Part shown: positions 11,203 to 40,151 of the stretch, piece by piece
Layout: every line of letters begins with the position of its first letter
Numbering within the stretch: position 1 is the first letter of the stretch
Source: Candidatus Omnitrophota bacterium
GTDB taxonomy: Bacteria; Omnitrophota; Gorgyraeia; Gorgyraeales; Gorgyraeaceae
Reading direction: 5' to 3'
Assembly (NCBI GenBank): GCA_030691625.1
Contig: JAUYDX010000047.1
Location: forward strand, 1-40,151
DNA: 40,151 nucleotides
The notes under the pieces: model-generated
What the model was told of the DNA's origin: nothing
Database searches by the model: none
Seen by the model: only the letters and a program-made list of their open reading frames with translations
Translations under genes and position numbers: made by a program

Positions 11203-11208
11203 GACATC

Positions 11209-12692: not shown

Positions 12693-12786
12693 TCGTGAAC
12701 GCGATTGACGGTTCTTTGATGGCGGCTGGCTGGTACGAGACAGAGATTACCAGCCGGCCGTTCTCAATATCGTAAAGGAGAATGAT

Positions 12787-12918: not shown

Positions 12919-12950
12919 GAGAAATCGCTCTAATTACAGAGAGGTGGAAA

Positions 12951-13178: not shown

Positions 13179-13201
13179 GTTACTCAACAGGGGGTAAGAA
13201 A

Positions 13202-13324: not shown

Positions 13325-13345
13325 GATCAAATGTTTTAAATAATG

Positions 13346-13377
13346 GGTTCCGCCCGGGTTTTAACCCGGGCGGAACC
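13346..13377. terminator. Strong GC-rich hairpin (terminator-like or attenuator-like)
   Basis: GGTTCCGCCCGGGTT-TT-AACCCGGGCGGAACC, 15-bp perfect stem; no T-tract follows. Confidence 0.5.
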
Positions 13378-13399
13378 TTATCTGTAAGGAGAGGTTTTC

Positions 13400-16072: not shown

Positions 16073-17538
16073 CAGAGGCCTTTACAGATAGATTTAAAGA
16101 TTTTATCACATTGAATTCATGGGAAAAGATCTACCCGGAAGAGATCGAGGGTATCTATACAAAGGTCGCTCCTGTCAAAGAAATGTGCGTCTTTACAGTC
16201 TCCGGGATGAAAGGCGCCAGGGGGTCGAAAGTTCTTTGGGCTGTCATCCAGCCGGATCTTGATAAGTTCAGGGAATTCGGAGAAGTGAATCTGCGCTTCG
16301 TCCTTAAGGAGAGATTTGATAATGCTTCGCTATTGCTCCCGATTTACAAAAGGCTCAAAGGTTTTACTATCGCGCTTGAGGATCTTCCGCATAATCTGTT
16401 CGGCAAGTTAGAAAGATACGCGGTCAAGAAAATATATGAACCCAGAGTGATCGCGGGGATAGAAGGCGCTCTCCCTGTATCAGGAGAGCTTTCGAGAGAG
16501 GATCTCCTATTGACAGGATCCGATATTGGCATAAAAATTTTGAAGTGCCTGGATGAGCAATGCCTCGAGGATCAATATGATATTAGAAGGCCTATAATAC
16601 TTGAGGATTCCTTAGAGCTGGACCTTGGCATAGATTCATTAGGCAGGGTAGTACTTGCTACGCGCCTTGAGGCGGCTTTTAACGTAGATATAAAAGATGA
16701 GGCGATCTCGAGGGCCTTTAGCGTAAAGGACCTTATTCTGGAGGTAACGGATGCGTTGAGAGGGGCTAAAGGCATACCTCCGGAGGACCAAGAGATATCC
16801 TTAGGGCCGGACTACTGGAAAGAAAATTTACAGGTATTGCCGAAAAAAGAAAATCTGGAGCTGCTCGAATTGGGTACCGGTTATTACGCCTGGCTGTTTC
16901 GATTTATTTTAACAGCCATAGATTGTCTGATTTTCAGGTTGTTTTTTAGTATCAAGGAAGAAGGAGCGGAGAACGTGCCCAGGGAAGAGGCTTATATTAT
17001 ATACGCCAACCACACGAGTTTTCTTGATGGGCCCGCCATTGGCGCAAGTTTGCCGCGCAGGCCGGTGTTTCAGCTTTTTTACTTTGTCTTCGGGCCGTAT
17101 TTTTTCAGGCCGTTTGTAAAATCCCGCGTATTAATGAATCTCGTAAAGATGGGAAGGTTTATTCCCTTTGATTTTTCAACGCATTTTCTGGAGGCGCTGC
17201 GCAGCTGTTATTTTGTATTAGAACGGGGCAAAGGTTTGTGTTTCTTTCCGGAAGGGCTGCGCAGTAGTACCGGTGAAATCGGGAAATTTAAAAAAGGGTT
17301 TGGTGTCCTGGCTAAAGAGACCGGGGCAAAGCTTGTGCCTGTGGCTATAGAGGGAACTCATGAGGCATGGGCCAGTACCGCGAAGTATCCCAAGAGACAT
17401 CCGATCAGAGTGAGATTCGGCAAGCCGCTTCTCCCGGAAGATCTGGAAAGGGAAGGGCTGGCAATGGGCTCACAAGATTGTTACGACGCTATATGCGTGG
17501 CGGCCAGAAAAGCGCTCGTGGAATTAAAGGAGAAATAA
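16069..17538 (+). CDS. AMP-binding C-terminal domain, acyl carrier protein and PlsC acyltransferase chimera
   Basis: IYPEEIEGIYTKVAPVKEMCVF (AMP-binding C-term); LELDLGIDSLGRVVLATRLE (phosphopantetheine Ser); NHTSFLDGPAIG (HX4D) and FFPEGLRSSTGEIGKFKKGFG (PlsC). Confidence 0.8.
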   Translation: MTEAFTDRFKDFITLNSWEKIYPEEIEGIYTKVAPVKEMCVFTVSGMKGARGSKVLWAVIQPDLDKFREFGEVNLRFVLKERFDNASLLLPIYKRLKGFTIALEDLPHNLFGKLERYAVKKIYEPRVIAGIEGALPVSGELSREDLLLTGSDIGIKILKCLDEQCLEDQYDIRRPIILEDSLELDLGIDSLGRVVLATRLEAAFNVDIKDEAISRAFSVKDLILEVTDALRGAKGIPPEDQEISLGPDYWKENLQVLPKKENLELLELGTGYYAWLFRFILTAIDCLIFRLFFSIKEEGAENVPREEAYIIYANHTSFLDGPAIGASLPRRPVFQLFYFVFGPYFFRPFVKSRVLMNLVKMGRFIPFDFSTHFLEALRSCYFVLERGKGLCFFPEGLRSSTGEIGKFKKGFGVLAKETGAKLVPVAIEGTHEAWASTAKYPKRHPIRVRFGKPLLPEDLEREGLAMGSQDCYDAICVAARKALVELKEK

Positions 17539-19262
17539 TGAGGATTCTCATGATGACGAATACCTATTTTCCGATTGTAGGAGGGTTAGAGCAATCAATC
17601 TATTCTTTTAGCGAAGAATTTAAAGCCTTGGGACATGAGGTTCTGATTGTTACTCCGGCCTTTAACGGGATGCCGGCAGAGGAACCGGGCATTATCCGTA
17701 TTCCAGCTATACAAAAATTTAGCGGGACTATTTTCTCGGTTAACTTTCCTATCTCCGGGCTCTTAACGCGATACATGAAAGAATTCTCTCCGGATATGGT
17801 GCATAGCCATTGTCCGTTTTTCATGGGAGATTTTGCGTTACGCCTCAGCAGGCAGCACGCTATACCACTCGTATTTACTTATCACACGATGTTTGAGCAG
17901 TATATACATGATTGGCCGGTCCAGAATGAGGGAGTGAAACGATTTATGGTCAAGCTAGCCGCAGGATATGCGAATTTGGTGGACCATGTGATAGCCCCAT
18001 CGGAAAGCGTGCAAGAAATTTTACTCACGAGAGGCGTCAAGACTCCCATAGAGGTTGTTCCTACAGGGGTAGATGTGAAACATTTTTCAAAAGGCAATGG
18101 AAAGGCTTTTCGCGAACGGAATCAGATCCCTCCAGATGCCTTAGTGATCGGACATGCGGGGCGTCTGGCGCCGGAGAAGAATTTGGAATTCCTGACAAAT
18201 TGTCTGGTAGAGTTGTTAAAAAAAGATGCAAGGGTTCATGTTCTAATCGTGGGCCTTGGCCCATCGGAGAAAATGATCAAAGACACCTTTTGGCAAGCCG
18301 GCCTTGAAAAAAGACTGCATTTGACCGGAGTTTTGCATTATCAGCATTTGGTTGACGCTTATTTTGCCATGGATGTTTTCGCGTTCGCTTCATTAAGCGA
18401 AACCCAGGGGATCGTTCTGATCGAAGCCATGGCAGCAGGCCTTCCTGTGGTGGCTTTGGATGCGCCCGGAGCGCGGGAGGTTATAGAAGATCATGTGAAC
18501 GGTAGATTGCTCAATGAGATGGATCAGCAAAGTTTTATTGACGCGCTTCTGTGGGTTTTACGCCGCTCTAACGAAGAGCTGCAAGCCATAAAGCAAGCTG
18601 CGAGAATGACAGCGCGGAAATACCCGATTAATTCTGTTGCCAAACGCATGTTAGAAATTTATGAAAAAATTAGATCTAGAAAATCTATTTCCCTGGGCAA
18701 GAAAAATAGTTCGCAGTATCTCTTTCTGTGGCGCATGAAAGCGGAGTGGGATGTTTACAGAAATTATATTAAATCCGCGGTCACGTCGGTGTTCGAAGGG
18801 AAATTTCAGGAAACAGAACCCATAAAGATTAATGATACGACGTTTGACCTTACGGACGCTGATAATGTTCTGCTTCAAGCGAAGAGAGAAGGGGAAAATC
18901 CGGTAGTCTTAGAAAGGAGAAAGTTGATAAGGCTTAGTCCCAGGCCGGGCACGAGAATAGAAGTAGTCGATTCCTCTGACAAAGAAAATGTTGGAGCCTT
19001 ACAGATAGCCGACATCTCTAAAGAAGGCGCGTTGTTCTTTTCCACTCAGGACATTCTTGGTGAAGAATTTTTGAGCCGTATCTATCGCCCAAAAAACGCA
19101 TCTCCATTTGAGCTTACCTGTAAAGTGAAACATAAGAGGAAATCGGAGAACGAGCTCTATCGCGTTGGTGTTTATTTTCCAGATATCTCCGAGAGCAGTA
19201 AAGAAAAATTATCAGAATGTATTGAATCTCCAAAGATTAATGATATGGCAAAGCGCTCATAG
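17538..19262 (+). CDS. GT4-family glycosyltransferase with C-terminal PilZ domain
   Basis: ATG 17538 overlaps previous TAA; MTNTYFPIVGGLEQSIYSFSEEF, HAGRLAPEKNLEFL, SETQGIVLIEAMAAGLPVVALDAPGAREV (GT4); C-term RRKLIRLSPR (RxxxR) and ADISKEGALFF (DxSxxG). The ORF-track start at 17367 is an in-frame extension. Confidence 0.85.
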   Translation: MRILMMTNTYFPIVGGLEQSIYSFSEEFKALGHEVLIVTPAFNGMPAEEPGIIRIPAIQKFSGTIFSVNFPISGLLTRYMKEFSPDMVHSHCPFFMGDFALRLSRQHAIPLVFTYHTMFEQYIHDWPVQNEGVKRFMVKLAAGYANLVDHVIAPSESVQEILLTRGVKTPIEVVPTGVDVKHFSKGNGKAFRERNQIPPDALVIGHAGRLAPEKNLEFLTNCLVELLKKDARVHVLIVGLGPSEKMIKDTFWQAGLEKRLHLTGVLHYQHLVDAYFAMDVFAFASLSETQGIVLIEAMAAGLPVVALDAPGAREVIEDHVNGRLLNEMDQQSFIDALLWVLRRSNEELQAIKQAARMTARKYPINSVAKRMLEIYEKIRSRKSISLGKKNSSQYLFLWRMKAEWDVYRNYIKSAVTSVFEGKFQETEPIKINDTTFDLTDADNVLLQAKREGENPVVLERRKLIRLSPRPGTRIEVVDSSDKENVGALQIADISKEGALFFSTQDILGEEFLSRIYRPKNASPFELTCKVKHKRKSENELYRVGVYFPDISESSKEKLSECIESPKINDMAKRS

Positions 19263-24911: not shown

Positions 24912-26734
24912 AAAAAGAAAAAACCAAAAACAGCGTTATAGAAAAAAGAATCCCGCATTATATTATAATAATATTATTATTTCTAACAGGGCTCGTGGCC
25001 TATAAAGGGGCGTTTATCAAAGGCATATTCCTGTTTGATGATCAGGCCCTGATAGTAGACAATCCGTTCATAAAGGATTTTTCGCATATAAAAGACGTAT
25101 TTACCACGCACCTTTTTAAAGGAAGCGGGGTCTACAGCAATTTCTACAGGCCCATGCAGGCGTTTTCGGCAATGATAGAATATCATTTCTGGGGGCTAAA
25201 GCCGTTTGGATATCATCTTGTGAATGTTGTCATACATATGCTTACCTCAATAGCAGTATATTTCTTCGGGTATATTTTATCCAAAAGGCAGATTGTAGGC
25301 ATAACCGCGGGTTTATTATTCAGCGTCCACACGGTTTTATCAGGGCCTGTTCATTATATTTCAGCAAGGGCTGATTTGCTCATGGCCTTATTTTCTGTAA
25401 TAGCCATAAATTTTTATATGCTTTACAGGGAAACAAAAACGCGCGGGGTATTATTCTATGGTGTTTCTTTTTTAAGTTTTTTAGCCGCTATCTTAAGCAA
25501 GGAAACCGCGGTAATGGTACCATTTTTAGCCTTATTTTATTTGTACTGTTTTTCCGACAGAAGGGCTAATCTGGAAAACAGGAAGCCAAATTTATTGTGG
25601 CCTTTTTTTATTGTTATAGCCCTTTACGGATGGCTCAGATTTACCGCATTGGATTTCTCAGAAGGAAAACTCATAGAAACAACCACAGGCGTGCTCCCTA
25701 TGCACATCAGGCTTCTGACTACAAGTAAGGTCCTTATGCTATATTTACGATTACTGGTTTTGCCTGTGGGTTTGCATATGGAATGGGATATAGCGCCTGC
25801 GGTTTCGTTTTTTCAGGATGAGGTTTTTCTGTCCATAGTGGGATTATTGATAATAGCCGGGTTTATTTATTTTCTATTCAGGAATTCCAGGCTCAAATTT
25901 TTTGCCATAGGATGGTTTTTTATAACGTTAATACCATACCTCAATATATTTCCTATTAATTATTTCATGGGAGAAGGCTGGCTATACGTGCCTTGCATAG
26001 GGTTTTTCATATTAATAGGACTGTATCTTTCGGAATTAGGAAGCAGGTCTAAGTTCCTGTCCTGGGCAGTTATTTTTATATTGCTATCTTTTACGCTATT
26101 TTACGGCGCCCTTACTTGCAGGCGGGCATATGTCTGGGCAGATCCCGCGAGATTATACAAAGAGGTTTTGAAATATTCCCCTAATAATACGAAGGCCAGA
26201 ATTAACCTGGGCATGATCCTGGCGAAATCAGGGGACAGGGAAGAGGCGATTAAAAGGTACAATGAGGTGGCTAAGATTACACCGAACGATTCAGGGGCGC
26301 ATGCCAATCTCGGATCTTTATATGCCGAAAAGAAGATGAATGACAAGGCCATGGAGGAATTTAAAAAGGCTGTTGAGCTGAATCCAAAGGATTATGTGGC
26401 CCACAATAATATAGGTATTTTATACAAGATGAAAGGCGATATTAAAAAGGCAATGGAAGAATACACAAAGGCGCTGGAACTTAATCCGAGTTATCCTCTG
26501 ACATATAATAATATAGGCAATATATATCTGGACTCAAGACAATATGAAGCAGCCATAAGGTTTTATAACAAGGCTATAAGTATAGATCCGAATAAGGCGG
26601 CTTTTTACTCCAATTTAGGCAAGGCGTATAAAGCCAAAAGGATGCCTGAAAAGGCCAGAGAGGCGTTTGGAAAGGCGTTACAGCTGGAACCGGGACATAA
26701 GGAAGCTGTCAGCGAACTTAAAACTATCAGATGA
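24908..26734 (+). CDS. TMTC-like multi-TM (GT-C-like) protein with C-terminal TPR repeats
   Basis: Multi-TM N-terminus with LIVDNPFIKDF, YRPMQAFSAMIEYHFWG.KPFGYHLVNVVIH, HYISARADLLMALF; C-terminal TPRs (AHNNIGILYKMKGDIKKAMEEYTKALELNPSYPLTYNNIGNIY). Confidence 0.82.
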   Translation: MKKEKTKNSVIEKRIPHYIIIILLFLTGLVAYKGAFIKGIFLFDDQALIVDNPFIKDFSHIKDVFTTHLFKGSGVYSNFYRPMQAFSAMIEYHFWGLKPFGYHLVNVVIHMLTSIAVYFFGYILSKRQIVGITAGLLFSVHTVLSGPVHYISARADLLMALFSVIAINFYMLYRETKTRGVLFYGVSFLSFLAAILSKETAVMVPFLALFYLYCFSDRRANLENRKPNLLWPFFIVIALYGWLRFTALDFSEGKLIETTTGVLPMHIRLLTTSKVLMLYLRLLVLPVGLHMEWDIAPAVSFFQDEVFLSIVGLLIIAGFIYFLFRNSRLKFFAIGWFFITLIPYLNIFPINYFMGEGWLYVPCIGFFILIGLYLSELGSRSKFLSWAVIFILLSFTLFYGALTCRRAYVWADPARLYKEVLKYSPNNTKARINLGMILAKSGDREEAIKRYNEVAKITPNDSGAHANLGSLYAEKKMNDKAMEEFKKAVELNPKDYVAHNNIGILYKMKGDIKKAMEEYTKALELNPSYPLTYNNIGNIYLDSRQYEAAIRFYNKAISIDPNKAAFYSNLGKAYKAKRMPEKAREAFGKALQLEPGHKEAVSELKTIR

Positions 26735-27662
26735 TTTTTCTGCGTTCTTTTACGTAGTTACTGCCAGGAAGGCTTTTCGCGTACTCTTTTAATTCCGCTC
26801 CTATCTCTCCTACCTCTCCCACGTGGTTTATCTTTCTCTTTTCATTGGTGACCACGCCTATGGATATTGATAATAACGGAATTTTCCTGGTCTTTTTTTT
26901 CCTGTCCTGGCCTATGATGTATCCTTTTTCCAGGTCTTCCCTGTTGTACAGCCCCGGGACCATGGAGTTGAAGTCAGCTATGATTTTTTTGCACAGATCG
27001 TCCGTTTTATCAGGGATAGTCACTACCACGAAATCGTCCCCTCCTATATGCCCTATGAAATCCTGGGGCGTGCCTTTTTCCTGCACGGAGTTTATCAATA
27101 TCCTGGCGGTATTTTTTATTACCTCATCGCCTTTTTCAAAACCGTATTTATCATTGAAGGCCTTAAATTTATCAAGGTCGGCGTAGCACACGGCGAAAGG
27201 CGTGTTTTTATCTATGCGGTTCCGTATCTCGTTTATTATAGAGACGTTTCCAGGGAGCCTTGTCAATGGGTTCGCGTCCAGATCCCTGGCGGATCTTCTC
27301 AAAACCATTTTTACCCTTGCCACCAGTTCCTGCGGTTCAAAGGGTTTGACCACATAATCGTCAGCGCCAGCGTTTATACCGTGTATCTTGTCTGTGATTT
27401 CGCCTTTGCCGGTGAGCATTATAATAGGCATGTGTTGTATGAGTATATCCTGTTTTAATGTTTTGCACACCTCGTCCCCGCACATCCGGGGCATCTTAAA
27501 ATCCGTGATAAGGAGGTCCGGGGATGATTTTTTTACCATCTCCAGGGCTTCCTGGCCGTCGTGCGCCTCTATCACCTGGTAGCCTTCCGCCTCAAGCGTT
27601 ATCCTTAAGACGTCTAATATATCCAGGTCGTCGTCTACGATGAGTATCTTTTCTTTTAACAT
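26727..27662 (-). CDS. Response regulator with GGDEF-family domain (GGDDF motif)
   Basis: ILIVDDDLDILDVLRITL...DLLITDFKMPRMCGDEV...YVVKPFEPQELVARV; DLDKFKAFNDKYGFEKGDEVI...FIGHIGGDDFVVV. Confidence 0.88.
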   Translation of the reverse strand: MLKEKILIVDDDLDILDVLRITLEAEGYQVIEAHDGQEALEMVKKSSPDLLITDFKMPRMCGDEVCKTLKQDILIQHMPIIMLTGKGEITDKIHGINAGADDYVVKPFEPQELVARVKMVLRRSARDLDANPLTRLPGNVSIINEIRNRIDKNTPFAVCYADLDKFKAFNDKYGFEKGDEVIKNTARILINSVQEKGTPQDFIGHIGGDDFVVVTIPDKTDDLCKKIIADFNSMVPGLYNREDLEKGYIIGQDRKKKTRKIPLLSISIGVVTNEKRKINHVGEVGEIGAELKEYAKSLPGSNYVKERRKII

Positions 27663-27677
27663 TTGCGCTTACTCCTT

Positions 27678-27725
27678 GGTTCTCGACTGGGCTCACATGA
27701 ATAGCCACAATGTCCGCTCGAACGA
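27678..27725 (-). repeat. Hairpin repeat element, copy A
   Basis: Minus strand: TTCGAGCGGACATTGTGGCTATTCATGTGAGCCCAGTCGAGAACC; shares conserved arms with copy B at 30599-30645. Confidence 0.65.
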
Positions 27726-27727
27726 TA

Positions 27728-29197
27728 TTAATATTTTGGTATCGTGAATGTAAACCTGGTTCCTTTGCCCAGCCTGGTGTCGAACCAGATCTTGCCTTTA
27801 TGGGCCTCCACTATTTTTTTAACAAGCGACAGGCCCAGCCCCGAACCCTTTATATTCTGGTCCATCGCATTGTCTGCCCTGAAGAATTCCTGAAAGACTT
27901 TCGGGATGTCCTGGGAAGGTATGCCTATGCCCGTGTCCTCTACGCTGAACTGTACATATCCGTCCCCGTCTTCTATGCCAACGGTTACCTTTCCGTTATC
28001 CGGGGTAAATTTAACCGCATTGCTCAGCAAGTTCACTAACACCCTTTCCATCTGGCCCTGGTCAGCCCTTATCCTGTCCGATTTTATACCCGTGTTTATT
28101 TTTAAAGAGATATTTTTTTCTTTAACCTGAGGCGCTATTATATCCACAACCGAATCCAGTATTTCTTTTATAGAAATATCTTTCATATCCATCTGGACTT
28201 TTCCTGACTCTATCCTGGCTATATCAAGAAGGTTGTTTATCAGGTGCACCAGGCTGTTAGAGTGCTTATCTATTTTTTCAAGCCTCTCCTTTTGCGCCGG
28301 CTGTACTTCTCCCAGCTTGCCTGTCATGAGTATTGAGGCATAACCCTTTATGGATGTCAGAGGGGTCCTTAGCTCGTGAGATACGGCTGATATGAAATCG
28401 GATTTCATTTTATTCAATGTTTTAAGTTCCTGATTCAGTTTTTCAAGCTCTCTTGTTCTTTCCGAGACCCTCCTCTCGAGTTCCTTGTGGGAACCGAAGA
28501 GCTCTGTGTAGAGTTTCGCGTTTTCAATGGCTGTCCCTATCTCGCCGGTGAGTATGGATAAAAGTTCCGAATCTTTTTCGCTGATTTTTTCATACGCGGA
28601 ATCATTTCCCATGATTATAAATCCGACCGGCTCCTCTCTTACTATAACAGGGGCCGTTACAAAAGATTCCATTTTCAGCATATCCAGAAGATTCCATCTC
28701 CGGTCCACGCTTTCCGCGAACCTGTCAACCAGTACCGGTTTTTCCTTTTTAAACAGAAAACCCGCGAATTTAGTCTTGTTGAGTTCCGGTTCTATTAGTT
28801 TTATCTCAGCTTCAGAATAGCCTATAGAACTTTTTATAACCATGGTTTCCGATGACCCATCCTTTAGCATGAGCAGTAATTTAGAGTATCCTAATTTTGC
28901 TAAAAAAGGCTGGTTTATCATGCTGAAAAGGGCTTCTGTATTAAAGGTGGAACTTATCTTTTTATTGAGTTCATGAAGCGCGTATAAGCTTGTTATTTTC
29001 CTGCCCAGCTCTTCTTGTATCTTATTAAGGGCCAGATCGGTTTTTATGATAATTTTCGCCTGGCTGTCCAGCTGGTCAATTATTCCTCCCAGTTTTTTAT
29101 TTGATTTTTCGAGTTCTATGCGCCTCCTGGTTTCTATATGATACAGCATAAACAAAATGCAGCTTATTAAGACAGAAATTATCATGTATGTACCCAT
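27728..29197 (-). CDS. Sensor histidine kinase with GAF-like domain
   Basis: N-terminal TM; GAF-like region; H-box AVSHELRTPLTSIKGYAS; LVNLLSNAVKFTPDNG; GSGLGLSLVKKIVEAHKG. Confidence 0.9.
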   Translation of the reverse strand: MGTYMIISVLISCILFMLYHIETRRRIELEKSNKKLGGIIDQLDSQAKIIIKTDLALNKIQEELGRKITSLYALHELNKKISSTFNTEALFSMINQPFLAKLGYSKLLLMLKDGSSETMVIKSSIGYSEAEIKLIEPELNKTKFAGFLFKKEKPVLVDRFAESVDRRWNLLDMLKMESFVTAPVIVREEPVGFIIMGNDSAYEKISEKDSELLSILTGEIGTAIENAKLYTELFGSHKELERRVSERTRELEKLNQELKTLNKMKSDFISAVSHELRTPLTSIKGYASILMTGKLGEVQPAQKERLEKIDKHSNSLVHLINNLLDIARIESGKVQMDMKDISIKEILDSVVDIIAPQVKEKNISLKINTGIKSDRIRADQGQMERVLVNLLSNAVKFTPDNGKVTVGIEDGDGYVQFSVEDTGIGIPSQDIPKVFQEFFRADNAMDQNIKGSGLGLSLVKKIVEAHKGKIWFDTRLGKGTRFTFTIPKY

Positions 29198-29199
29198 AG

Positions 29200-30390
29200 C
29201 TACTCCGAAAACAGCGTTATGGAAATACTGTGGTTATTAAAATTACACTGGCCGTGCGATTCCTTTGCGTCAGATGGCGCGTATTCCCCGAAGGTATAAC
29301 ATCCCAGTATGGGTATATTTCTGCCCAGGACTTCTTTTACCGCGTCCATTTCCTTGTAAGCGTCATCTTTTAAGACTAAAAGCCTGGCCATGTCGCTGAA
29401 TATCGCAGCAAATTTTATTTTCGCATAACTGATATCTTTTACCGCTGATGTTGCCGCCTTTTTGGCGGATTCCAGTACAGCATCCTTGTCCCCTATCATC
29501 AGGCTTATATCATCCTCTTCTTTTATGTCCCCGTTTAACAGGAGCCCGCCGGCATCATCTATAGCGATAGGCACCCTGGTAATATAATCGTCAAAATTAG
29601 CTGATCTTGTCCCAATCGGATAGGTTATGCCCAGCGCGCAGATACCATAGTTTTTAAGCTCTTCAATGGATTTCTCAAAGTATTCTTCGTACAACCTGAC
29701 AGCTATTTTTTTATCTATTTCTTTTATGGTATTGGATCTGGCTTTTGTGATTTTATGGGTTTTTCCTAAAGGCTGCCAGCCATTGGATGTCCCAATGCCT
29801 AATCTGATATCGCCTGATATGAGCGCCCCGGACACAGAATCTGATAGCGCCTCGCTATCCATATACTGATATGTTTTCCGGTCGCATGTCTTATTGCACG
29901 CGCCGCCCCCTATTATGGGAAAACCTGTACCGAGTACTTCCTGGGAACCTCTTAAGATATTAGCGCTTTGTCCGGATGCGCCGTCAGAAAACATCATATA
30001 GGCTTGTTTGAGTTTGGATTTATTAGTTAAGCCAAGGGCCTTTATGACAGTCTTATTCCCGGCTAAACCAGGGCTTTTGGAAACCTTATCCCCTATCCCG
30101 CAGGAAAACAGCATAGAATCAGAGCTTATTATAAATACAGCCACGGAATCCTTATGGGAACCGTAGCTGGAAATAGCGCCTATGCTGGAGCATCCTATAA
30201 GCTGTGTATCTCTTGTTATCGATCTTATGCCCCTTATTGTTTCCTGTTGGTCAAATATAGGAGATATAAAAGTAATTACTATGCCGGGGTCATTTTTCCC
30301 GATCTGATAATAGGCATTCAAGGCAGCTTCTTTACCCGCTGTGAAAGAATCCAGTTTAGCGCTTATGCCTGTGCCTAATAATGTAGCCAT
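29200..30390 (-). CDS. FIST N/C domain sensory protein
   Basis: SFTAGKEAALNAY...DTQLIGCSSIGAISSYGSHKDSVAVFIISSD...GFPIIGGGACNKT...AAIFSDMARLLVL...IPILGCYTFGEYAPS. Confidence 0.82.
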   Translation of the reverse strand: MATLLGTGISAKLDSFTAGKEAALNAYYQIGKNDPGIVITFISPIFDQQETIRGIRSITRDTQLIGCSSIGAISSYGSHKDSVAVFIISSDSMLFSCGIGDKVSKSPGLAGNKTVIKALGLTNKSKLKQAYMMFSDGASGQSANILRGSQEVLGTGFPIIGGGACNKTCDRKTYQYMDSEALSDSVSGALISGDIRLGIGTSNGWQPLGKTHKITKARSNTIKEIDKKIAVRLYEEYFEKSIEELKNYGICALGITYPIGTRSANFDDYITRVPIAIDDAGGLLLNGDIKEEDDISLMIGDKDAVLESAKKAATSAVKDISYAKIKFAAIFSDMARLLVLKDDAYKEMDAVKEVLGRNIPILGCYTFGEYAPSDAKESHGQCNFNNHSISITLFSE

Positions 30391-30753: not shown

Positions 30754-30831
30754 GGCCCTATCGTCTAGCCTGGTCTAGGACATATGGTTCTCAGCCATAA
30801 GACAGGGGTTCAAATCCCCTTGGGGCTACCA
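30754..30831 (+). tRNA. tRNA-Glu (anticodon CTC)
   Basis: GGCCCTA...TGGGGCTACCA; anticodon stem TATGG/CCATA with loop TTCTCAG; GGTTCAAATCC T-arm. Confidence 0.92.
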
Positions 30832-31223: not shown

Positions 31224-31252
31224 TTGACAAACACTATATTATAATATATACT
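31224..31252 (+). promoter_or_regulatory. Sigma70-like promoter for the riboswitch/giant-gene transcript
   Basis: TTGACA-17 bp-TATACT. Confidence 0.75.
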
Positions 31253-31332: not shown

Positions 31333-31432
31333 ATCCTCTCCGATAATAGCAAACCATGAGTAATCATGGGGCGCAAAACCAAGGGTCCGCCACCACTTAA
31401 AGTGGTGGCGAGATAGCCGAGTTGCCAAAGAG
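31333..31432 (+). ncRNA. Cyclic di-GMP-I (GEMM-I) riboswitch aptamer
   Basis: AGCAAACCATGAGTAATCATGGGGCGCAAAACCAAGGGTCCGCCACCACTTAAAGTGGTGGCGAGATAGCCGAGTTGCC matches the GEMM-I layout: GCAAACC, P2 hairpin, GG.CGCAAA.CC, P3 hairpin, AGC.G.GTTGCC. Confidence 0.87.
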
Positions 31433-31461
31433 AGATAAAAACAAGGCAATTCGGCTTTTTT
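31415..31461 (+). terminator. Intrinsic terminator overlapping the riboswitch 3' strand
   Basis: AGCCGAGTTGCC ... GGCAATTCGGCT followed by TTTTT; the 5' arm is the aptamer 3' strand. Confidence 0.85.
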
Positions 31462-31493
31462 ATTAAATCAATTAAATCGCGGGGGCGAGGCCG

Positions 31494-34400
31494 ATGTTAG
31501 ACTGGCAGAATAAAAAATGGATTAAAGTAATAGCCTGTGTATTGGTTATTACTTTTCTTGCTTACGACATAGCCTGGGCCACAGACTTCTCCCCTATTGC
31601 TCTGCATTCAGCTATTCCCGGTACCCCCGGTATTTTCCCCAAGATAACAAGCTTTATATCCGAGAAGATCTTTAAGAAAACAGACAAGACAAAAAAACCC
31701 GAAGAAACAGAGATTTCTTTCAGAAGCCAGCTCGTCCCTTCGAAAAAATACGAAGAGAGGTCTGGCTTTTTGCGTTTAGAGGCTGTCAGGGATATGATAA
31801 AGCGCCAGATGGATGAGATGCAGCGCCGTCAGCAGATAGAGCAGGAACGCGTTAATAGATATATCATAGATTCTGATATCAATAAAGGCCTATATATAGA
31901 TGCTGTGGAAAAGGCGCAAGAGGCCCAGTCTATCAATCAGCAGATAATGAAGGCAAGGGGCGAAACCATGGGTGCTGCAGCAGCAACCAGCGAGTTTAAC
32001 TACGTGATGAATAAAGACGGCTCAAAGGTGAACTACATAGACGGCCTTCCATCCTCAATAGAAAACGAACAGATGGCGGATTCCTATGGCTACGTGAGCA
32101 TAAAGAACACAAAGAACATGAAATACAATAGCTCTCGCCTTTTAACCTCCTATGATGCCGAGGTAATAGACCCCAAAGGCAATATCACTAAGATCAACTG
32201 GTATGACGCGGTCTATAGCCCTGATTCAGTCTGGTGGGCTGACAGCACTACAAAGGCCGGTAAATACATGCTCAGTTACAAAGAGATCATCACTGATCCG
32301 CAAGGCACAGTTATCCAGCGGGAATGGTCAACCGCAAAAGAGAATTATGATTCGCTGAAAAGGCCCATGACCTACAGGGAGACGATAAAAGACGCCATAG
32401 GGAATACCATTTCTACCTCAGACTGGTCAAATGGCATATATGACGGAGACAAACTCAAAAGCTATCACCAGGTTACTAAAGACGCTTACGGAAACGTGAG
32501 TACCCTTGACTGGGAGGCTGAATATAATAATTTTGGCTATATCAAGAAGTCATCTTCAAAAGAAAAACTTGAAAAAAGAGACCATTCCACTTCTTTTACC
32601 GAAAGCGCCACCACGTATGATTATGACTCTAACGGGACATTAAATACAGCATCCGGGACCAGCGCGATTACCGGAGAGGATGAGTACGGCAATAGAAATA
32701 CAGGCACTACCACGCAGCACTATGAAACAATAAACGGACAGGTAAAACTTACCAAGAATTTGTCCATAGTGGATTACGAAAATATAGACGGTTCCACCGC
32801 TCACAGCGAAAGCGTTGTGGAATACACATATGATTCCAGAAATCTTCTGATAGGGGCAGAGGGCATTACAGGGACAACCGGCAAAAATATATTTGGGAAT
32901 GGGTATAAGACAATCACGACAGATACTTATGAGATAATCGCAAGCCAGGCGAGGCGGGTCCATTCAGTGTCTATAAGCGATGAAGAAGACCTGTTTGGTT
33001 CAAATACACATTCAGAAACAATCAATGATTACAAATATGACGCTAAAACAGGGGATCTCATATCAGCTACAGGTTACACAGATACCCTGTCTGAAGACCT
33101 GTTTGGCAACCAGTCGGTTACGCGCACAGACCACATCTATCAGATTATTAATGGCGAAGCAAGGATGATCGGGTCTGAGACAAGAGGCGACCTGGTAAAT
33201 CCAGGAAGCGAAATGGGCCAGATTATATCAGGCATACAGGATTTTTTAGAATCTTACGCCGCACTCGCCACCCCAGAGGCAAAACAGGCAAAATTACAAG
33301 AGGCTGGATTAGCAGGCCTTGGATTAAAATTAGCTGACCTTACAACAGCAGGTGCCCTTAAAATCGCAGTGTGGCTGTTCAGGGCATCTACAAACCTCAT
33401 AAACTGCGCAATAAACGCAGTCTATAATATACTTTCAAAATTAGGCATTACAGTTACAAAGAAGGAACTGATCCAGAAGGCTGTGCTGATAGATGTGCTC
33501 AGCGGCGTAATAACACCTGAAAACGCCAGCGGCGACCTGATGCTTTCCATGTATTCTATGGTCAAGGCAGCCCAGGCAAAAGGTATTACACTTTACGGCG
33601 CGAATGTGACAATAGAGCAATTGAAATCCATAGGCAAGCCTGTAATAGCGCATGTAGGCGGCGATCACTATATTGTGATAAAGTCCGTAGGCGATTCCCA
33701 GATCACTTATATCCAGGATAATGAGGAAAAGATCATGGGCCTGGCAGAATTCTTGAGCGTATGGGAAGGCAATATCGCAACCCAGGATGTGCCAAGCGGT
33801 GTCACAGCCATGAATGAAGAGGCGCTTAAAGCAATAACAGGCGCGGAGGCGCAATATCGTTTGCCAAGGCCAAAGAAACCTACAGATCCTGCAACAGGCG
33901 TTAATCCTCCTCAATGGAGCGCGCCTGAGGATTCTGTAAAGCCAAAAGACGCGAAGTCTTCCCAGTGGGAAGATGTGTCTGGATGGGAATGGCAGTGTGA
34001 ATGGAATGATTCTGAAGATCAATGGGAATGGAAATCTGTCTATGTAGAAAAGGCAAAGATCTCCTGGCAAAAAGACGGCAAAAATTATTACCAGATATTC
34101 GGCAAGAATCGCGAAAATAAATGGGAGGCCATAACTAATACTGAAGGGAAACCAACAGGGCCAGCGTATAATTCTGATTATAATAACAGCAGGCCGCCTG
34201 ATGGCAGGGCGTTTCGGCCTCCGCCTCTTGATGAAAAACGCGAAATGAAGGTGAAAATAAAAGATGGCATTTATGTGACATTCAGGTACAGCAAGTCTGT
34301 GCCTGTAATTGATATAGAAGGCAAAGTAGCCTATTTTACTTATTACCTTGTGTTTACAGACCCTGTTACGAACAATGACCAGGAGGTAGAATGGGTTGAT

Positions 34401-37400
34401 TCATCAAGCTGGGAATGGGAAAAGATTGATGGAGAATGGATGTCTGTGTGGAAAGAAAGGGCAATGATTTCATGGGCACAGAGCAACGGACCTGATAAGG
34501 AAGAAAACAGGTATTCCAAGACGTTTGAAGAGAACTCAGACGCCAGCGGCTGGGTTATATCAGAAGGCACCAATGGTTTTGGCGGATTTTTAAAAGAGAT
34601 TATTGAGGTAAAAGGCGATCCTAACGGCAGGCATGTGGCGCAGTGGAGCGATGATGGCCAGAGCGGGTTTGAGCTGTTCAGAAAGGGCGAGCCAAATACA
34701 GGGTCTTATTACTTATATTACCTGACTTGGAATTATAAAGACGGAAAACGCGAAGAGAGCCTGACTATAATAGAAGGTTTTAATATTTATATGAAGTCCC
34801 AGAATGACAAGGGCACGACTGTTACCGAGGCTGAGCGCAATCAGAATGCCAGCGGGGTTAACTGGGCGAATATTTGGAATAATAATACAGAGACAAAGTC
34901 TGTGATGCTGGCAAAAATAAAGCGGGAAGGGAATTATTATCATATTGACGGAGAGTCTGTTATGTACGAAGGCCTCTTAACAGTGATTGTCTCTTTGAAG
35001 CGCGAAATAGGCAAGGATGAAGCAGGGGTCCTTGACAGAAAGGCGTATTTTATAAGGAACGACTCTTTTGTTGACTGGCCTGAACTTGTAAAGCAGTTAA
35101 AAGACAATATCTCCGCTAAATTTGTTTATGATGAATTAGGCATGGGCCTGTTCGCAAAGGTGGTTTTATCAAGGAAAACCGGGGGCGATGGGGATTTTAA
35201 ATTCACTATAGATCTTGATGAACTGTGGGAATACCCTGAAAAAGAAGGGGATGAATTCATCTTTAAATTTATCCAGAACGGGACGTCAAAGACATATACA
35301 GCCGGATCAATGACCCTGGACTATACTACAGGATATATTGTAAGGGATGAAGACGGCAATATTGTAGAAGATCATACAAGCATAGATCGCGAAATCGCGG
35401 ATATCAAAGCAGTAGTTACAATAACGTGGGTGGATGAAGAAGGAAAACCTGTAAAAGCCGGGGAATCGCCCAGAGGTTACAAGATAAGAGTGACAATACA
35501 AAGCCCTTCAATAGAGCAAGGCTTTGATCCTTCTGAACCTGATGAGAATGGAAATGTGACAGAGACTATAAACCACAAGATAGTTTATAACGAGACCTCG
35601 TTTGAATTCACCATTGATATAGATGTTGAAAATATGTCCAGCGGAACTGACCTATCCATGGATGCCGGGAAACTTTATCAGGAATTCCTAAAGGATAAAA
35701 CAGATGAGTATAACAAGCAGAATAACGAGTCCCTCACAGTGGAACAGTGGCTGGATAAGAATCCATTGTATAAAAATCCAGCGCTCAGGGCGGTATTCGA
35801 CCAAAAGATAAAATTAATCAAAGGCAAAAATGCAGGGGAATGGATACCTGAAATTACCAGGACTTACAAAGACGGAGCAACAACGATAGGCACAATGAAG
35901 CTAACTACTATGAAGCTTCACACATTATCAAAGGAATTGAACGATTTAAAATCAACAGCTACTTACAAGGAAAACCTGGCATTTATGCCGGAATCGCTTT
36001 TAATAAAGGATATGAAGATTGCTACAAATGGAGTGCTTGATTATACGTATGAAATCAGCAGTGACGGCGTTATCAGCGGGGCTGAACTTCTCCCGAATAA
36101 TACCACACCCGCCATTGATACTAATCCTCCGGAGCCGTTAGTAAGAACTACTGAACCCAGCGCAGCGGGCGCCCTGGGCGTTTTCAGCCCTCTAGGCCTG
36201 TCATCTTTATTGAGGGGCCAGACTGTTATAAGCTTTGACTCTGGCAATAACGTGGAAAGCATTGTGATGCCTGACAGATCAGGGAACATAGTAAAATATA
36301 CGCTCAAATCTGTTGTGTCAGAAAATAAATTCAGGATGAAATCAGGGAGTTTAAATATCCCTGACATTATCTTAACGCTTGATAAGGAAGGTAATATAGC
36401 TATTGAGGCTGTGGATTCAGGAAATCCTCCGATACTTATACAGCTTGCAGACGGCAAGGCAATAGGCCAGGCAAGAGGCGCTGAAACAGAGGGGGTCTAT
36501 GAAATTTCCCAGGATATATCCGGCAATAAGATAATGCTGATAGATTTTCAGGCTAAGGAACTAAAGGAAGAAAAAAGCATAAAGACAGCCACGAGCATAA
36601 TCGAGGCCATTAAAAAATTCCTGGAAGAAAAGATGCAGGCAATAGGCGCTGTCCCTGATAAGATAAGAAATGCCATAAATACTCTGGGAGGCGTAACTAA
36701 ATTTTTAAAATGGCTTACACAGATGGGCACGTATCTTATAAACTGCGCTGTCATTGCGGCAAAGGCCGTGCTTGCAAAGGCAGGGGTGAATCTGGGAGTC
36801 CAGGAGATAGCGGTTGATATGATCTTACTGGACCTGATGGCAGGGAACATTAACCCCAGGACCACAGCCATACTTTACAGCACATTTTCCGCGATAGAAA
36901 AGATAATAAAGAATAACGGCGTTAACATGAAGACCATGTATTTTACAAGGAGCCAGCTTGAGAATATCACCACGCCTGTTATCGCGCATGTAGGCGGAGA
37001 TCACGCAGTGGTGGTCACAGGGGTCTACAATGGAGAGGTCTATATCATAGAGTCAGACGGGAAATTATACAACGTGCCTATCAATAAATTCCTGGAGGAA
37101 TGGAGCGGTTTTATGATCGCGGAAAGGGCTCCGCCTATGACAGGGGCACCGGATACCGCGATCAGTATCCCCGAGCAGATTCCTTCCCAGGGTTTTATTG
37201 CCACGCCGCAGGAAAAACTCATACCGCAGGCAATAGAAGACAGATTAAAAAAAGCTTCTGAAATACCTTCATCAGATCAAAAAATAATCCTTGTAACCAA
37301 GTTAAAAGAACCTGAAGCAGACTTATTTGACCACAGCCGCGTACATGAATCCAGCCCTGATGTCATAACCACTATAGGGATTGACGGCTCTATAACCTAT

Positions 37401-40151
37401 ACAAAGAGCTGGGTAAAATATGAATATGACGCAGACGGCAGGCTTATCAGCGCCAGCGGAGAAGACTATGTATGGGGAGAGGATATATTCGGGAATTCTT
37501 ACAGGACCACCTCTACCTCCACGTATCTGATAATAGGAGGCCAGGCAAAGAAGGTAAGATCCGAATCTATTACCGAGTCAGAGACCCTGGATGGGTCAAA
37601 CAGCGCTACCACAGGGACTGTTAATTACGAATACACAGACGGCACTGAAGACCCGTCTACATTACCTTCGGCATACACAGATGAAGATGGGAATGTGCTC
37701 AAGGGGCTTTTAAAACACGCAGACGGGAGCAGCGTTACTACAGGTTCGGATGTATTTGGGAATGGCTATACCACAAGAAGTACTGATACTTATGCGATTA
37801 TAAATGGAGAAGCAAGGGTTCAAAAAAGCGTATCTAATACAGAAAGCCAGACCATATCAGGCGCGTTGAATAAGACCACGTCCACTATTGAATATCTCTA
37901 CGCGGATGGCACAGAAGACCCTGATTCTCTTCCCGCGGAATGCATTAATGAGGACGGCAAAATAATTGTCGGCTCATTAAAAGGCGCCAATGGCCTTGTG
38001 CAGTCTTCCTCAGAAGATGTATTTGGCAATGCCTACACCACCACCACAATAGATACCTACGGGATACTGGCAGGCAGGGCAAAGGTCCTGCAGTCTAATT
38101 CAATAACAAAATCCGTGTCCCTTGATGGCCTTATAAATACCAATACAGGCCGCATTGAGTATGAATACAGCGTAACTGAAGATCCTTATGTGAACCCTGA
38201 GACAGGGAGATCCGGCATAGGGGTTTTGGTTGGCGCAAAGGGCGGAAATATTGTAGAAGGCGAAGACGTATTTGGAAACAAATATTTCACCACCACCACA
38301 AATACCTATACCATGAGCATGAGCGGCCAGGCAAAGGTACTGGAAGCTGTTTCCCTGACCGAATCAGTTAATATAGACGGCTCTATAAGAAGGGATGAGA
38401 ATTTTATAACCTATCACTATACAGACGGCACAGAAGACCCGGCAACGCTTGGACCTGAATATTTTGACAAAGACGGCAATATAATAATAGGCATTTTAAA
38501 ATCAGCTGAAGGCCATGGCCAGACAACAGGCGAGGACGCATTTGGCAATAGATACACTACAGTAAGCGCCAATAGATATATCTACAGGAAAGGCGAGGTG
38601 TTTGTTGAGGGGGTGGACAGCGTTACAACCGGCAGAGACCTTTTTGGCAATTCTTATACAACCACAACCTGGATGGATTATTCTTTCGGCAGTCTTAAGA
38701 AGGGTGAAAAAGGCGCTCTCAGAGACGCTGATTTTGTGATATCCGGGATTGGCGCAAAAGGAGGCGGATCTGTAACTGTAGGCAGGGATCTGTTCGGAGC
38801 AGAATACAATACCGCAGTTACCAACACATATATATTTAATAAGGGACAGTTGTATGTTAACAAAGTGGACAGTCTGACAAAAGGGTCTGACGCATTTGGT
38901 TCCAGCTACACATCAATAGGTTTTGTTGAATATCTATACAGCAGCCTTAAAAAAGGAGAAAAAGGCGCGCTAAGGGATGCTGATTTTATATTGATAGACG
39001 CCAGAGGCGGAAATGAAAATACATCCATAGATGTATTTGGGTCGAATTCCATTACCACTACCACAAATACCTATATCTATAATAAAGGCCAGGTTTATGT
39101 GCTTGTCTCAGACAGCGTGACTACTGGTTCAGATTTGTTTGGGTATAGCTATGCTACCACAGGGTCTATTAATTACAGCTATGGCCAGTTATTAAAAGGC
39201 GAAAACGGCGCTCTCAGGAACGCGGAGTTTGCGATAAAAGAAGCCGCAGGCGGGTCTAGTAACGTAACCCATAATGTATTCGGCGAATTAACCACCAGCG
39301 TAACGACAAATATATACAAAATAGTAAAGGGCCAGTCATTAATAGATACCTCAGTGGTTGTTACAAGCGGCACAAATCTATTTGGAGAGTCATATGTTAC
39401 CACAACCATCACGAAATATACGTATCATGAAACCCCTGAAGGGCCTAACAAGGCGTATGGGGAGCTAAAAGACGCGATAACAGAGTCTAATACCGAAGGC
39501 AGTGATGTATGGGGCTCAAGTTATGCCACTATATCCACATCCTATTATACGAATATAAACAACAGGGCGCTTGTATCAAAGGTTATGGCTCAGACCACAG
39601 GCGAGAATCTGTTTGGAGAAAGCTACACAACAGAATCTATTACTGAATATTTCTATTATGATGGAAAAACAGGGCCTGATAAGGTATATGGCGAGATCAG
39701 GGATGCTAGAAGCGTCAACATAACAACAGGCCTTGATGTTTGGGGTTCAAGTTACCAGACCACATCCACAACCAAATTTATAATAATAAAGAATAAACCC
39801 CTGCAACAGGAAGTTACAGCTGTGACAGCAGGCTCTAACCTGTTTGGAGAAAGCTACACTACATATTCCACTACCACCTACACCTATAAAGATACTGAAG
39901 GCGGAGACGCCAAGGAAACTAGCCTTGGCCAATTGGCCAGTACCGCGAGTAATAGCGTTACTAACGGCACCGACGTCTGGGGCGCCACATACACGACTAC
40001 ATCCGAGACCAAGTTCACCCAGATAAATAACAGGCCTTTTGCTGAAAAAGTCACAGCCGTTACAACCGGCACAAACCTCTTCGGCGAAAGCTACACCACA
40101 TACTCAACCACCACCTACGCCTATAATGACAAAGGAGAGATACTCTCTACC
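31494..40151 (+). CDS. Giant secreted repeat protein with two C39-like domains, 3' truncated by window edge (at least 2,886 aa)
   Basis: ATG 31494 (MLDWQNKKWIKVIACVLVITFLAYDIAWATDFSP..., signal peptide). I translated this frame by eye to 40151 and found no stop. Not in the supplied ORF track. Confidence 0.93.
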   Translation, partial: MLDWQNKKWIKVIACVLVITFLAYDIAWATDFSPIALHSAIPGTPGIFPKITSFISEKIFKKTDKTKKPEETEISFRSQLVPSKKYEERSGFLRLEAVRDMIKRQMDEMQRRQQIEQERVNRYIIDSDINKGLYIDAVEKAQEAQSINQQIMKARGETMGAAAATSEFNYVMNKDGSKVNYIDGLPSSIENEQMADSYGYVSIKNTKNMKYNSSRLLTSYDAEVIDPKGNITKINWYDAVYSPDSVWWADSTTKAGKYMLSYKEIITDPQGTVIQREWSTAKENYDSLKRPMTYRETIKDAIGNTISTSDWSNGIYDGDKLKSYHQVTKDAYGNVSTLDWEAEYNNFGYIKKSSSKEKLEKRDHSTSFTESATTYDYDSNGTLNTASGTSAITGEDEYGNRNTGTTTQHYETINGQVKLTKNLSIVDYENIDGSTAHSESVVEYTYDSRNLLIGAEGITGTTGKNIFGNGYKTITTDTYEIIASQARRVHSVSISDEEDLFGSNTHSETINDYKYDAKTGDLISATGYTDTLSEDLFGNQSVTRTDHIYQIINGEARMIGSETRGDLVNPGSEMGQIISGIQDFLESYAALATPEAKQAKLQEAGLAGLGLKLADLTTAGALKIAVWLFRASTNLINCAINAVYNILSKLGITVTKKELIQKAVLIDVLSGVITPENASGDLMLSMYSMVKAAQAKGITLYGANVTIEQLKSIGKPVIAHVGGDHYIVIKSVGDSQITYIQDNEEKIMGLAEFLSVWEGNIATQDVPSGVTAMNEEALKAITGAEAQYRLPRPKKPTDPATGVNPPQWSAPEDSVKPKDAKSSQWEDVSGWEWQCEWNDSEDQWEWKSVYVEKAKISWQKDGKNYYQIFGKNRENKWEAITNTEGKPTGPAYNSDYNNSRPPDGRAFRPPPLDEKREMKVKIKDGIYVTFRYSKSVPVIDIEGKVAYFTYYLVFTDPVTNNDQEVEWVDSSSWEWEKIDGEWMSVWKERAMISWAQSNGPDKEENRYSKTFEENSDASGWVISEGTNGFGGFLKEIIEVKGDPNGRHVAQWSDDGQSGFELFRKGEPNTGSYYLYYLTWNYKDGKREESLTIIEGFNIYMKSQNDKGTTVTEAERNQNASGVNWANIWNNNTETKSVMLAKIKREGNYYHIDGESVMYEGLLTVIVSLKREIGKDEAGVLDRKAYFIRNDSFVDWPELVKQLKDNISAKFVYDELGMGLFAKVVLSRKTGGDGDFKFTIDLDELWEYPEKEGDEFIFKFIQNGTSKTYTAGSMTLDYTTGYIVRDEDGNIVEDHTSIDREIADIKAVVTITWVDEEGKPVKAGESPRGYKIRVTIQSPSIEQGFDPSEPDENGNVTETINHKIVYNETSFEFTIDIDVENMSSGTDLSMDAGKLYQEFLKDKTDEYNKQNNESLTVEQWLDKNPLYKNPALRAVFDQKIKLIKGKNAGEWIPEITRTYKDGATTIGTMKLTTMKLHTLSKELNDLKSTATYKENLAFMPESLLIKDMKIATNGVLDYTYEISSDGVISGAELLPNNTTPAIDTNPPEPLVRTTEPSAAGALGVFSPLGLSSLLRGQTVISFDSGNNVESIVMPDRSGNIVKYTLKSVVSENKFRMKSGSLNIPDIILTLDKEGNIAIEAVDSGNPPILIQLADGKAIGQARGAETEGVYEISQDISGNKIMLIDFQAKELKEEKSIKTATSIIEAIKKFLEEKMQAIGAVPDKIRNAINTLGGVTKFLKWLTQMGTYLINCAVIAAKAVLAKAGVNLGVQEIAVDMILLDLMAGNINPRTTAILYSTFSAIEKIIKNNGVNMKTMYFTRSQLENITTPVIAHVGGDHAVVVTGVYNGEVYIIESDGKLYNVPINKFLEEWSGFMIAERAPPMTGAPDTAISIPEQIPSQGFIATPQEKLIPQAIEDRLKKASEIPSSDQKIILVTKLKEPEADLFDHSRVHESSPDVITTIGIDGSITYTKSWVKYEYDADGRLISASGEDYVWGEDIFGNSYRTTSTSTYLIIGGQAKKVRSESITESETLDGSNSATTGTVNYEYTDGTEDPSTLPSAYTDEDGNVLKGLLKHADGSSVTTGSDVFGNGYTTRSTDTYAIINGEARVQKSVSNTESQTISGALNKTTSTIEYLYADGTEDPDSLPAECINEDGKIIVGSLKGANGLVQSSSEDVFGNAYTTTTIDTYGILAGRAKVLQSNSITKSVSLDGLINTNTGRIEYEYSVTEDPYVNPETGRSGIGVLVGAKGGNIVEGEDVFGNKYFTTTTNTYTMSMSGQAKVLEAVSLTESVNIDGSIRRDENFITYHYTDGTEDPATLGPEYFDKDGNIIIGILKSAEGHGQTTGEDAFGNRYTTVSANRYIYRKGEVFVEGVDSVTTGRDLFGNSYTTTTWMDYSFGSLKKGEKGALRDADFVISGIGAKGGGSVTVGRDLFGAEYNTAVTNTYIFNKGQLYVNKVDSLTKGSDAFGSSYTSIGFVEYLYSSLKKGEKGALRDADFILIDARGGNENTSIDVFGSNSITTTTNTYIYNKGQVYVLVSDSVTTGSDLFGYSYATTGSINYSYGQLLKGENGALRNAEFAIKEAAGGSSNVTHNVFGELTTSVTTNIYKIVKGQSLIDTSVVVTSGTNLFGESYVTTTITKYTYHETPEGPNKAYGELKDAITESNTEGSDVWGSSYATISTSYYTNINNRALVSKVMAQTTGENLFGESYTTESITEYFYYDGKTGPDKVYGEIRDARSVNITTGLDVWGSSYQTTSTTKFIIIKNKPLQQEVTAVTAGSNLFGESYTTYSTTTYTYKDTEGGDAKETSLGQLASTASNSVTNGTDVWGATYTTTSETKFTQINNRPFAEKVTAVTTGTNLFGESYTTYSTTTYAYNDKGEILST
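33390..33800 (+). other. C39-like peptidase domain 1 within the giant ORF
   Basis: TNLINCAINAVYNILSKLGI (Cys codon 33405-33407) ... KPVIAHVGGDHYIVI (His codon 33666-33668) ... ITYIQDNEEKIMGLAEFLSVWEG. Confidence 0.7.
36723..37125 (+). other. C39-like peptidase domain 2 within the giant ORF
   Basis: TQMGTYLINCAVIAAKAVLAKAGV (Cys codon 36744-36746) ... TPVIAHVGGDHAVVV (His codon 37002-37004) ... YIIESDGKLYNVPINKFLEEWSG. Confidence 0.7.
37470..40151 (+). repeat. Degenerate protein-level tandem repeats in the giant ORF (FG/WG-signature units)
   Basis: About 18 copies of [GS]xD[VL][FW]Gx.Y.TT signatures, e.g. GEDIFGNSYRTTS, GSDVFGNGYTTRS, GRDLFGNSYTTTT, GTNLFGESYVTTT, GSDVWGSSYATIS, GTNLFGESYTTYS. 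Confidence 0.88.

Follow-up and report, generated by a model that had tools for sequence, protein, structure and literature searches.

A giant, probably exported repeat protein of Omnitrophota with a predicted cyclic-dinucleotide switch in its leader

What kind of gene occupies the last 8.6 kb of this Omnitrophota contig, how would it be switched on, and what might its product do? The window, that is, the whole 40,151-bp stretch of DNA analysed here, is an entire contig (G000:C17) of a metagenome-assembled genome (MAG) of 1.44 Mb in 101 contigs. In its sequence the locus holds a coding frame, a riboswitch aptamer, a terminator that reuses the ligand-binding strand of that aptamer, a signal peptide shared with other giants, two C39 domains with the catalytic Cys and His, and beta repeats (Table 1). 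With moderate confidence, we read it as the 5' part of the gene for a giant, Sec-exported, repeat-rich Omnitrophota protein whose transcription would be under the control of a cyclic-dinucleotide switch and whose likeliest purpose would be contact with surfaces or other cells.

Extent and coding status of the open frame

The giant open reading frame is very probably a genuine coding gene under selection, as judged from its pattern of divergence. The earlier note had claimed that frame 3 stays open from the ATG at 31494 to the last base of the contig, and rereading the sequence revealed no stop in these 2,886 codons. The other five frames of 31494–40151 contain 100–223 stops each, so that this opening is not a matter of chance, and the remaining ORFs of at least 100 aa in the 8.6-kb stretch are, as that note had described, all antisense (107–209 aa). 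In comparisons with two relatives, aligned over 774–876 codons, substitutions per codon position were 0.23–0.29, 0.19–0.22 and 0.54–0.57 at positions 1, 2 and 3, respectively, and the third-position excess moved as expected in a frame-shifted control. This third-position divergence indicates that the giant ORF is very probably translated and under purifying selection.

The complete orthologous proteins are probably several thousand residues longer than the part visible here. The search for homologues in Omnitrophota that had been proposed at the outset recovered orthologues throughout the same genus and family (labelled f1), and all 17 named-genome contigs that encode relatives belong to Candidatus Omnitrophota MAGs. 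Nearly all assembled orthologues break at contig ends within the repeats, and the longest open pieces that include the N-terminus reach 3,237 aa. The estimate of several thousand further residues comes from relatives' contigs of 9.3, 11.1 and 17.4 kb, which are gap-free, match the repeat region and are open from end to end. Giant ORFs of Omnitrophota have been delimited as single ORFs of more than 20 kb (Seymour et al. 2023); the visible length of the present one, up to the contig end, is 8.66 kb.

The stop codon of the giant ORF lies beyond reach because contig G000:C17 ends and the repeat occurs on no other contig of the MAG: searches over all contigs with the full protein and with its repeat part found no second place in the 1.44 Mb. 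No assembled orthologue has a clear natural 3' end; two of them (L040 and L041) stop earlier, possibly through frameshifts. In L040 (positions 1782–11133, the orthologue of genome G007), the frame ends at 2,029 aa and is followed by 1,103 codons in an overlapping frame, which points to a frameshift or an assembly error.

Table 1. Features of the giant-gene locus, with their positions in the window
Feature	Position	Strand	Basis
Response regulator with GGDEF-like domain (GGDDF motif), divergent neighbour	26727..27662	-	Pfam; sequence; 77-88% identity in conserved synteny
Histidine kinase (GAF, HisKA, HATPase_c), divergent neighbour	27728..29197	-	Pfam; conserved synteny
FIST sensor protein, divergent neighbour	29200..30390	-	Pfam; conserved synteny
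tRNA-Glu (CTC), conserved upstream neighbour	30754..30831	+	Also upstream in most relatives
Promoter-like TTGACA-N17-TATACT	31224..31252	+	11/12 consensus positions, consensus match only; ~85 bp 5' of aptamer
c-di-GMP-I riboswitch aptamer (predicted)	31338..31429	+	Rfam RF01051, 58.2 bits vs cut-off 35, E 5.3e-9
Intrinsic terminator (predicted), 5' arm = aptamer 3' strand including C92 equivalent	31415..31462	+	12-bp main stem and U tract, -21.6 kcal/mol, z -7.0
Ribosome-binding-site-like GGGGG	31481..31485	+	GGGGG or GGAGG 8-9 nt before ATG in orthologues
Giant ORF, at least 2,886 aa, 3' open at contig end	31494..40151	+	ATG start
Conserved signal peptide, aa 1-29, AWA cleavage site	31494..31580	+	Alignment of 19 long ORFs; profile hits within family and class are mostly giant ORFs
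Long helix, probable coiled coil, aa 91-158	31764..31967	+	AlphaFold2 model, low local confidence
First block of short antiparallel beta strands, RHS/YD-like, aa 169-565	31998..33188	+	AlphaFold2 pLDDT about 80-90; best Foldseek match Rhs shell, E 2.4e-10
C39-type cysteine peptidase domain 1 (Cys638, His725), aa ~632-765	33387..33788	+	Pfam PF03412; 6mpz superposition
C39-type cysteine peptidase domain 2 (Cys1751, VIAHVGGDH, IESDGK), aa 1745-1885	36726..37148	+	Pfam best stretch aa 1797-1875; conserved in orthologues
Thr/Ser/Gly-rich beta repeats GxDxFGxxYTTTT, spacing alternating 34 and 43-50 aa, running off contig	37386..40151	+	Orthologue alignment

The signal peptide and kinship with other giants

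The giant ORF begins with a signal peptide, as had been recognised from the sequence at the start. Its N-terminus (MLDWQNKKWIKVIACVLVITFLAYDIAWA, followed by TDFSP) shows the n-region, the h-region and the AxA motif that mark Sec signal peptides. An alignment of 19 long ORFs shows strong conservation of this N-terminus, with W9, F21, W28 and A29 present in all of them, and over the first 36 aa the conservation far exceeds what signal peptides usually show. Within family f1, a profile of these 36 aa gave 26 matches at E ≤ 2.5e-10, every one at the start of a long ORF or of an ORF cut by a contig end, and matches occurred in 77 of 147 genomes of the class. Outside f1, 48 of the 59 ORFs matched at E < 1e-6 were at least 1,000 aa long and 35 were at least 2,000 aa long, compared with 8 and none, respectively, of 239 background ORFs.

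This signal also opens giant frames across the class, among them matched frames of 45,379 (G041, single contig), 42,913 (G157), 39,687 (G071) and 35,884 codons (G153). Genome G071 is a single contig of 1,974,201 bp, and we take its 39,687-codon frame to be, very probably, the giant of Candidatus Velamenicoccus archaeovorus. The protein reported for that organism has 39,678 aa (PMC10066038). With our own profile, a C39 domain was found in 15 of the 34 class giants whose starts were fetched, typically beginning 100–150 aa after the start; Pfam confirmed C39 in nine of ten other giants tested, and none of the 17 C39 domains aligned, which come from many families, departs from the catalytic Cys and His.

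The earlier note had interpreted the ORF as a surface protein related to the Omnitrophota giants, possibly serving attachment or cell–cell interaction. Its Omnitrophota origin is supported by the 17 named relatives, every one of them a Candidatus Omnitrophota MAG, and the kinship with giants is borne out by the signal-peptide profile and the C39 domain common to frames of 17,000–43,000 codons. The suggested role in attachment or cell–cell interaction gained no direct support. Pfam recognises C39 only, and the likeness of the beta repeats to RHS shells or to single-layer sheets is seen in a predicted model only. The riboswitch and the peptidase domains are additional to that interpretation.

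Several other very long frames were encountered. In another Omnitrophota family, a contig of 135,114 bp (G035:C9, positions 1–135114; loci L217–L223) consists of one 45,037-codon frame that is open at both ends and has two weak C39 matches. The 45,379-codon frame of G041 (L240, position 746 onward; G041:C1:1156745) lies in a 1.55-Mb single-contig genome and has the same type of signal peptide; its first 5,122 aa contain no C39 domain. In L058 (positions 1337–19255), a paralogue of 5,973 aa that shares the signal peptide contains a radical-SAM-like CxxxCxxC motif around aa 3426, which is odd for an exported protein. Besides the giant ORF, the MAG to which the window belongs encodes a second very long exported-type ORF of at least 2,877 aa (L066, positions 2990–12675), which also runs off its contig end.

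Giant Omnitrophota ORFs are already known as a kind. The present ORF resembles those described (PMC10066038; preprint of West-Roberts et al., cited in PMC12057145) in its phylum, its great length, its exported nature and its few annotated domains, in its homologous signal peptide and, as in many of them, in the presence of C39. It differs in that its C39 domains lie at aa 632–765 and 1745–1885, behind the RHS-like repeats, and not near the start, in the riboswitch before the gene and in a visible part of 2,886 aa. No mention of C39, of the signal peptide or of a riboswitch was found in the main paper on Omnitrophota giants (PMC10066038), and our search found no paper combining Omnitrophota with a riboswitch; the West-Roberts preprint lay outside that search, and a prior mention there is possible. 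As far as the literature was searched, both the class-wide conserved export signal with C39 and the riboswitch control are new.

The riboswitch leader and its ligand

The leader of the giant gene is predicted to act as a ligand-ON switch. An aptamer followed by a terminator precedes the ATG by 50–130 nt in 13 orthologous genes from 11 genomes, and the U tract and CGGC core of the terminator are kept in all 13 leaders. In c-di-GMP-I aptamers, C92 pairs with the ligand, and the 5' arm of the terminator (31415–31426) is the very aptamer strand that carries the C92 equivalent. Because the two structures overlap in this strand, ligand binding and termination would be mutually exclusive, implying that the ligand turns transcription on. 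A cGAMP-sensing switch before pilM follows the same logic, with a terminator that sequesters the ligand-pairing C (PMC9262584).

On the available sequences, the switch is a property of this orthologous gene, with few parallel cases. No aptamer was found in any of the eight scanned upstream regions of f1 paralogues that have the same signal peptide and are devoid of the C39 and RHS-like body, so that the association follows the orthologous gene rather than the signal peptide. Among giants of other families, three of about 36 checked have an aptamer (G027, G032 and G100), and with these counts a riboswitch as a general feature of giant genes was rejected. We also rejected the idea that, within the class, aptamers of this family usually serve giant genes, since the downstream genes were mostly ordinary in 40 high-scoring cases. 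Two orthologues form exceptions that count against our main reading, in which ligand and polarity are predictions: L039 (G016) has no aptamer, and that of L050 (G009) is interrupted. The insert that splits the latter (~1440–1620) is rich in inverted repeats.

Aptamers of the c-di-GMP-I type are very common in the class: 259 of 292 genomes have them, and a single genome may hold as many as 14. In the same genome as the giant gene, a second c-di-GMP-I switch, of the G20 type, lies in L066 before a 259-aa winged-helix-like gene, which is followed by the ORF of at least 2,877 aa mentioned above.

The leader shares aptamer sequence and structure, and a terminator that competes for the ligand-pairing C, with c-di-GMP-I (GEMM-I, RF01051) switches and their cGAMP-selective relatives from Geobacter. 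Unlike these, it combines an A at the position of G20 with a genome in which no cGAMP synthase is recognisable, and the gene that it precedes encodes a giant exported protein. The Bc2 RNA of Bacillus thuringiensis offers a precedent: this c-di-GMP riboswitch lies in the leader of the gene for the collagen adhesin Cap (PMC4933901). Both systems place a second-messenger leader switch before the gene for a surface protein; the proteins are unrelated, and the present one has peptidase domains and is far larger.

C-di-GMP is the conservative choice of ligand for the predicted switch. A tentative alternative is that the switch senses 3',3'-cGAMP instead, which would place the giant gene in a cGAMP regulon apart from the c-di-GMP-I switches of the cell. 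We take positions 31348, 31375 and 31425 to be the equivalents of positions 20, 47 and 92 in Vc2 numbering. The first of them is A, not the G20 of c-di-GMP-I aptamers, in all 13 intact orthologous leaders, compared with G in the three other switches of the same genome; A47 and C92 are kept, which yields the A20/A47/C92 set of cGAMP-selective GEMM-Ib. G20 is a determinant of selectivity, and a G20A change lets a c-di-GMP-I aptamer bind cGAMP (PMC7288161; PMC9262584). The strict A20 pattern is also rare in the class relative to the aptamer family as a whole, occurring at 35 places in 30 of the 292 genomes, and 14 of these 35 places precede this giant gene.

The enzymes encoded in these genomes argue against cGAMP. 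Neither a Hypr GGDEF nor a SMODS enzyme was found as a cGAMP synthase in the own genome (MAG 91% complete), and both were rejected as its source of cGAMP. Of the four GGDEF matches in this genome, one is degenerate and the other three carry Asp where Hypr enzymes have their signature residue, and all 31 GGDEF motifs recovered from own and related genomes carry Asp there, most of them as GGEEF; SMODS enzymes occur in only 2 of 11 switch-carrying relatives. Additionally, cGAMP-type aptamers can bind c-di-GMP too, according to work cited in PMC9262584.

A plausible local signal source lies next to the gene, with the GGDDF response regulator as the candidate. The divergent FIST–kinase–GGDDF cassette (26727–30390, minus strand) is complete beside the orthologue in five loci and partial in several more.

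Domain architecture and possible function

The visible protein is built, in order, of the signal peptide, a helix, RHS-like beta repeats, a C39 domain, a middle that models poorly, another C39 domain and, lastly, further repeats that span more than 900 aa. In the AlphaFold2 model obtained for aa 30–790 (pLDDT 70.6), a disordered start is followed by the helix at 91–158, about 25 short antiparallel strands at 169–565 and the C39 fold at ~632–765, and the GxDxFGxxYTTTT units begin at about aa 1965. The middle, aa 1040–1935, yielded a model of such low quality (pLDDT 46.9) that it could not serve in a fold search. A sequence search against solved structures returned chance matches only. No adhesin domain was recognised in the visible 2,886 aa, which, together with the poorly modelled middle, weighs against our main reading.

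Both C39 domains appear to be equipped for catalysis. Pfam PF03412 matches the whole protein in two stretches with E 1.5e-19 (70.6 bits vs a cut-off of 22), and the model of domain 1 superposes on the PCAT1 peptidase 6mpz with Z 10.3 and an rmsd of 2.7 over 119 residues. Cys638 and His725 are invariant in 10 orthologues. The fold and the catalytic Cys and His are thus those of the C39 domains of PCAT/NHLM exporters and FapD; here, unlike there, no ABC transporter is fused to them, as no membrane-spanning or ATPase Pfam domain of ABC exporters occurs in the visible 2,886 aa, and two copies sit inside an exported repeat protein. A further point against the main reading is that ABC exporters are the usual setting of C39 domains.

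The term RHS-like is a description only, because other beta-sheet proteins match about equally well. The best Foldseek match of the N-terminal model is the Rhs shell 8uxt (E 2.4e-10, TM 0.07), and in a second aligner, VIA-align, other long beta-sheet folds such as porins and OspA scored about equally well, at middling Z. Porins and translocases led that alignment list (Z 10–12, rmsd 6–8), which we read as a common beta arrangement and not as kinship. What resembles the RHS/YD-repeat shells (Tse15, 8uxt) is the long runs of short antiparallel beta strands, seen here in a predicted model only; unlike those shells, the protein has no sequence-level RHS match, and the Pfam RHS/YD-repeat models gave none at E ≤ 1, with C39 as the only hit.

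A predation weapon is, on these grounds, an unlikely identity for the protein. In that reading, an RHS-like shell would hold or deliver an effector and the C39 domains would be the proteases that release it, in place of an adhesin function. RHS shells are known for autoproteolysis, which would fit such a role, as would the top rank of an Rhs effector shell in the Foldseek search. The relatives, moreover, are thought to be predators or epibionts (PMC10066038). However, the proteases described for RHS are of a type other than C39, the visible part contains no C-terminal effector, and the missing Pfam match, the poor alignment to whole shells and the equal scores of other long-beta-sheet folds all speak against this reading.

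The C39 domains are also unlikely to be mere peptide-binding modules, which would serve in folding or in docking to an exporter as the C39-like domain of HlyB does. NCBIfam and fold matches of the C39 domains do include the HlyB domain, and the Asp of the triad is variable, being Q741 in domain 1 with D742 adjacent. However, HlyB-type C39-like domains lack the catalytic Cys, whereas Cys and His are both retained without exception in the aligned domains of the class giants and in the orthologues. An artefact of assembly or annotation is strongly disfavoured and very improbable, whether a contig that is chimeric at its end or a gene in decay whose frame stays open by chance. In its favour are the frequent breaks inside the repeats, a sign of difficult assembly; against it are the codon-position pattern of selection, the 2,886 codons without a stop, and the leader, signal peptide and C39 domains that recur in the same order in independent MAGs.

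For the giant exported protein that we favour, the following course can be proposed. Rising c-di-GMP (or 3',3'-cGAMP) would stabilise the aptamer and block the terminator, so that RNA polymerase would continue into the giant gene; the FIST–kinase–GGDDF regulators may be the dedicated input of this switch. The product would be exported through Sec by a signal peptide specialised for giants, and its beta repeats would form a long stalk or shell beyond the inner membrane. The C39 domains might then cut the giant protein itself or a partner after export, thereby anchoring, maturing or releasing it. The purpose would be contact with surfaces or with host, prey or other cells. Attached, predatory or epibiotic life has been proposed for Omnitrophota relatives (PMC10066038), and by analogy with c-di-GMP-controlled adhesins (PMC4933901), combined with this inferred lifestyle, the most likely use seems to be adhesion, whether to surfaces or to the cells of a host or prey.

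On a broader scale, we tentatively suggest that the giants of the class share a single export system, with a dedicated signal peptide and often a self-processing C39 head, to which the present gene would add gating by a cyclic-dinucleotide (possibly cGAMP) riboswitch fed by the FIST–kinase–GGDDF cassette. The 36-aa signal, found in roughly half of the class genomes that were sampled, and the adjacent peptidase present in many cases, probably including V. archaeovorus, offer short, plasmid-sized handles. The riboswitch would be an on-switch operated by a chemical and open to in vitro tests that need no culture of the organism. Through a shared export tag, a protease domain and an RNA sensor, the regulation and export of the largest known bacterial proteins may thus become testable.
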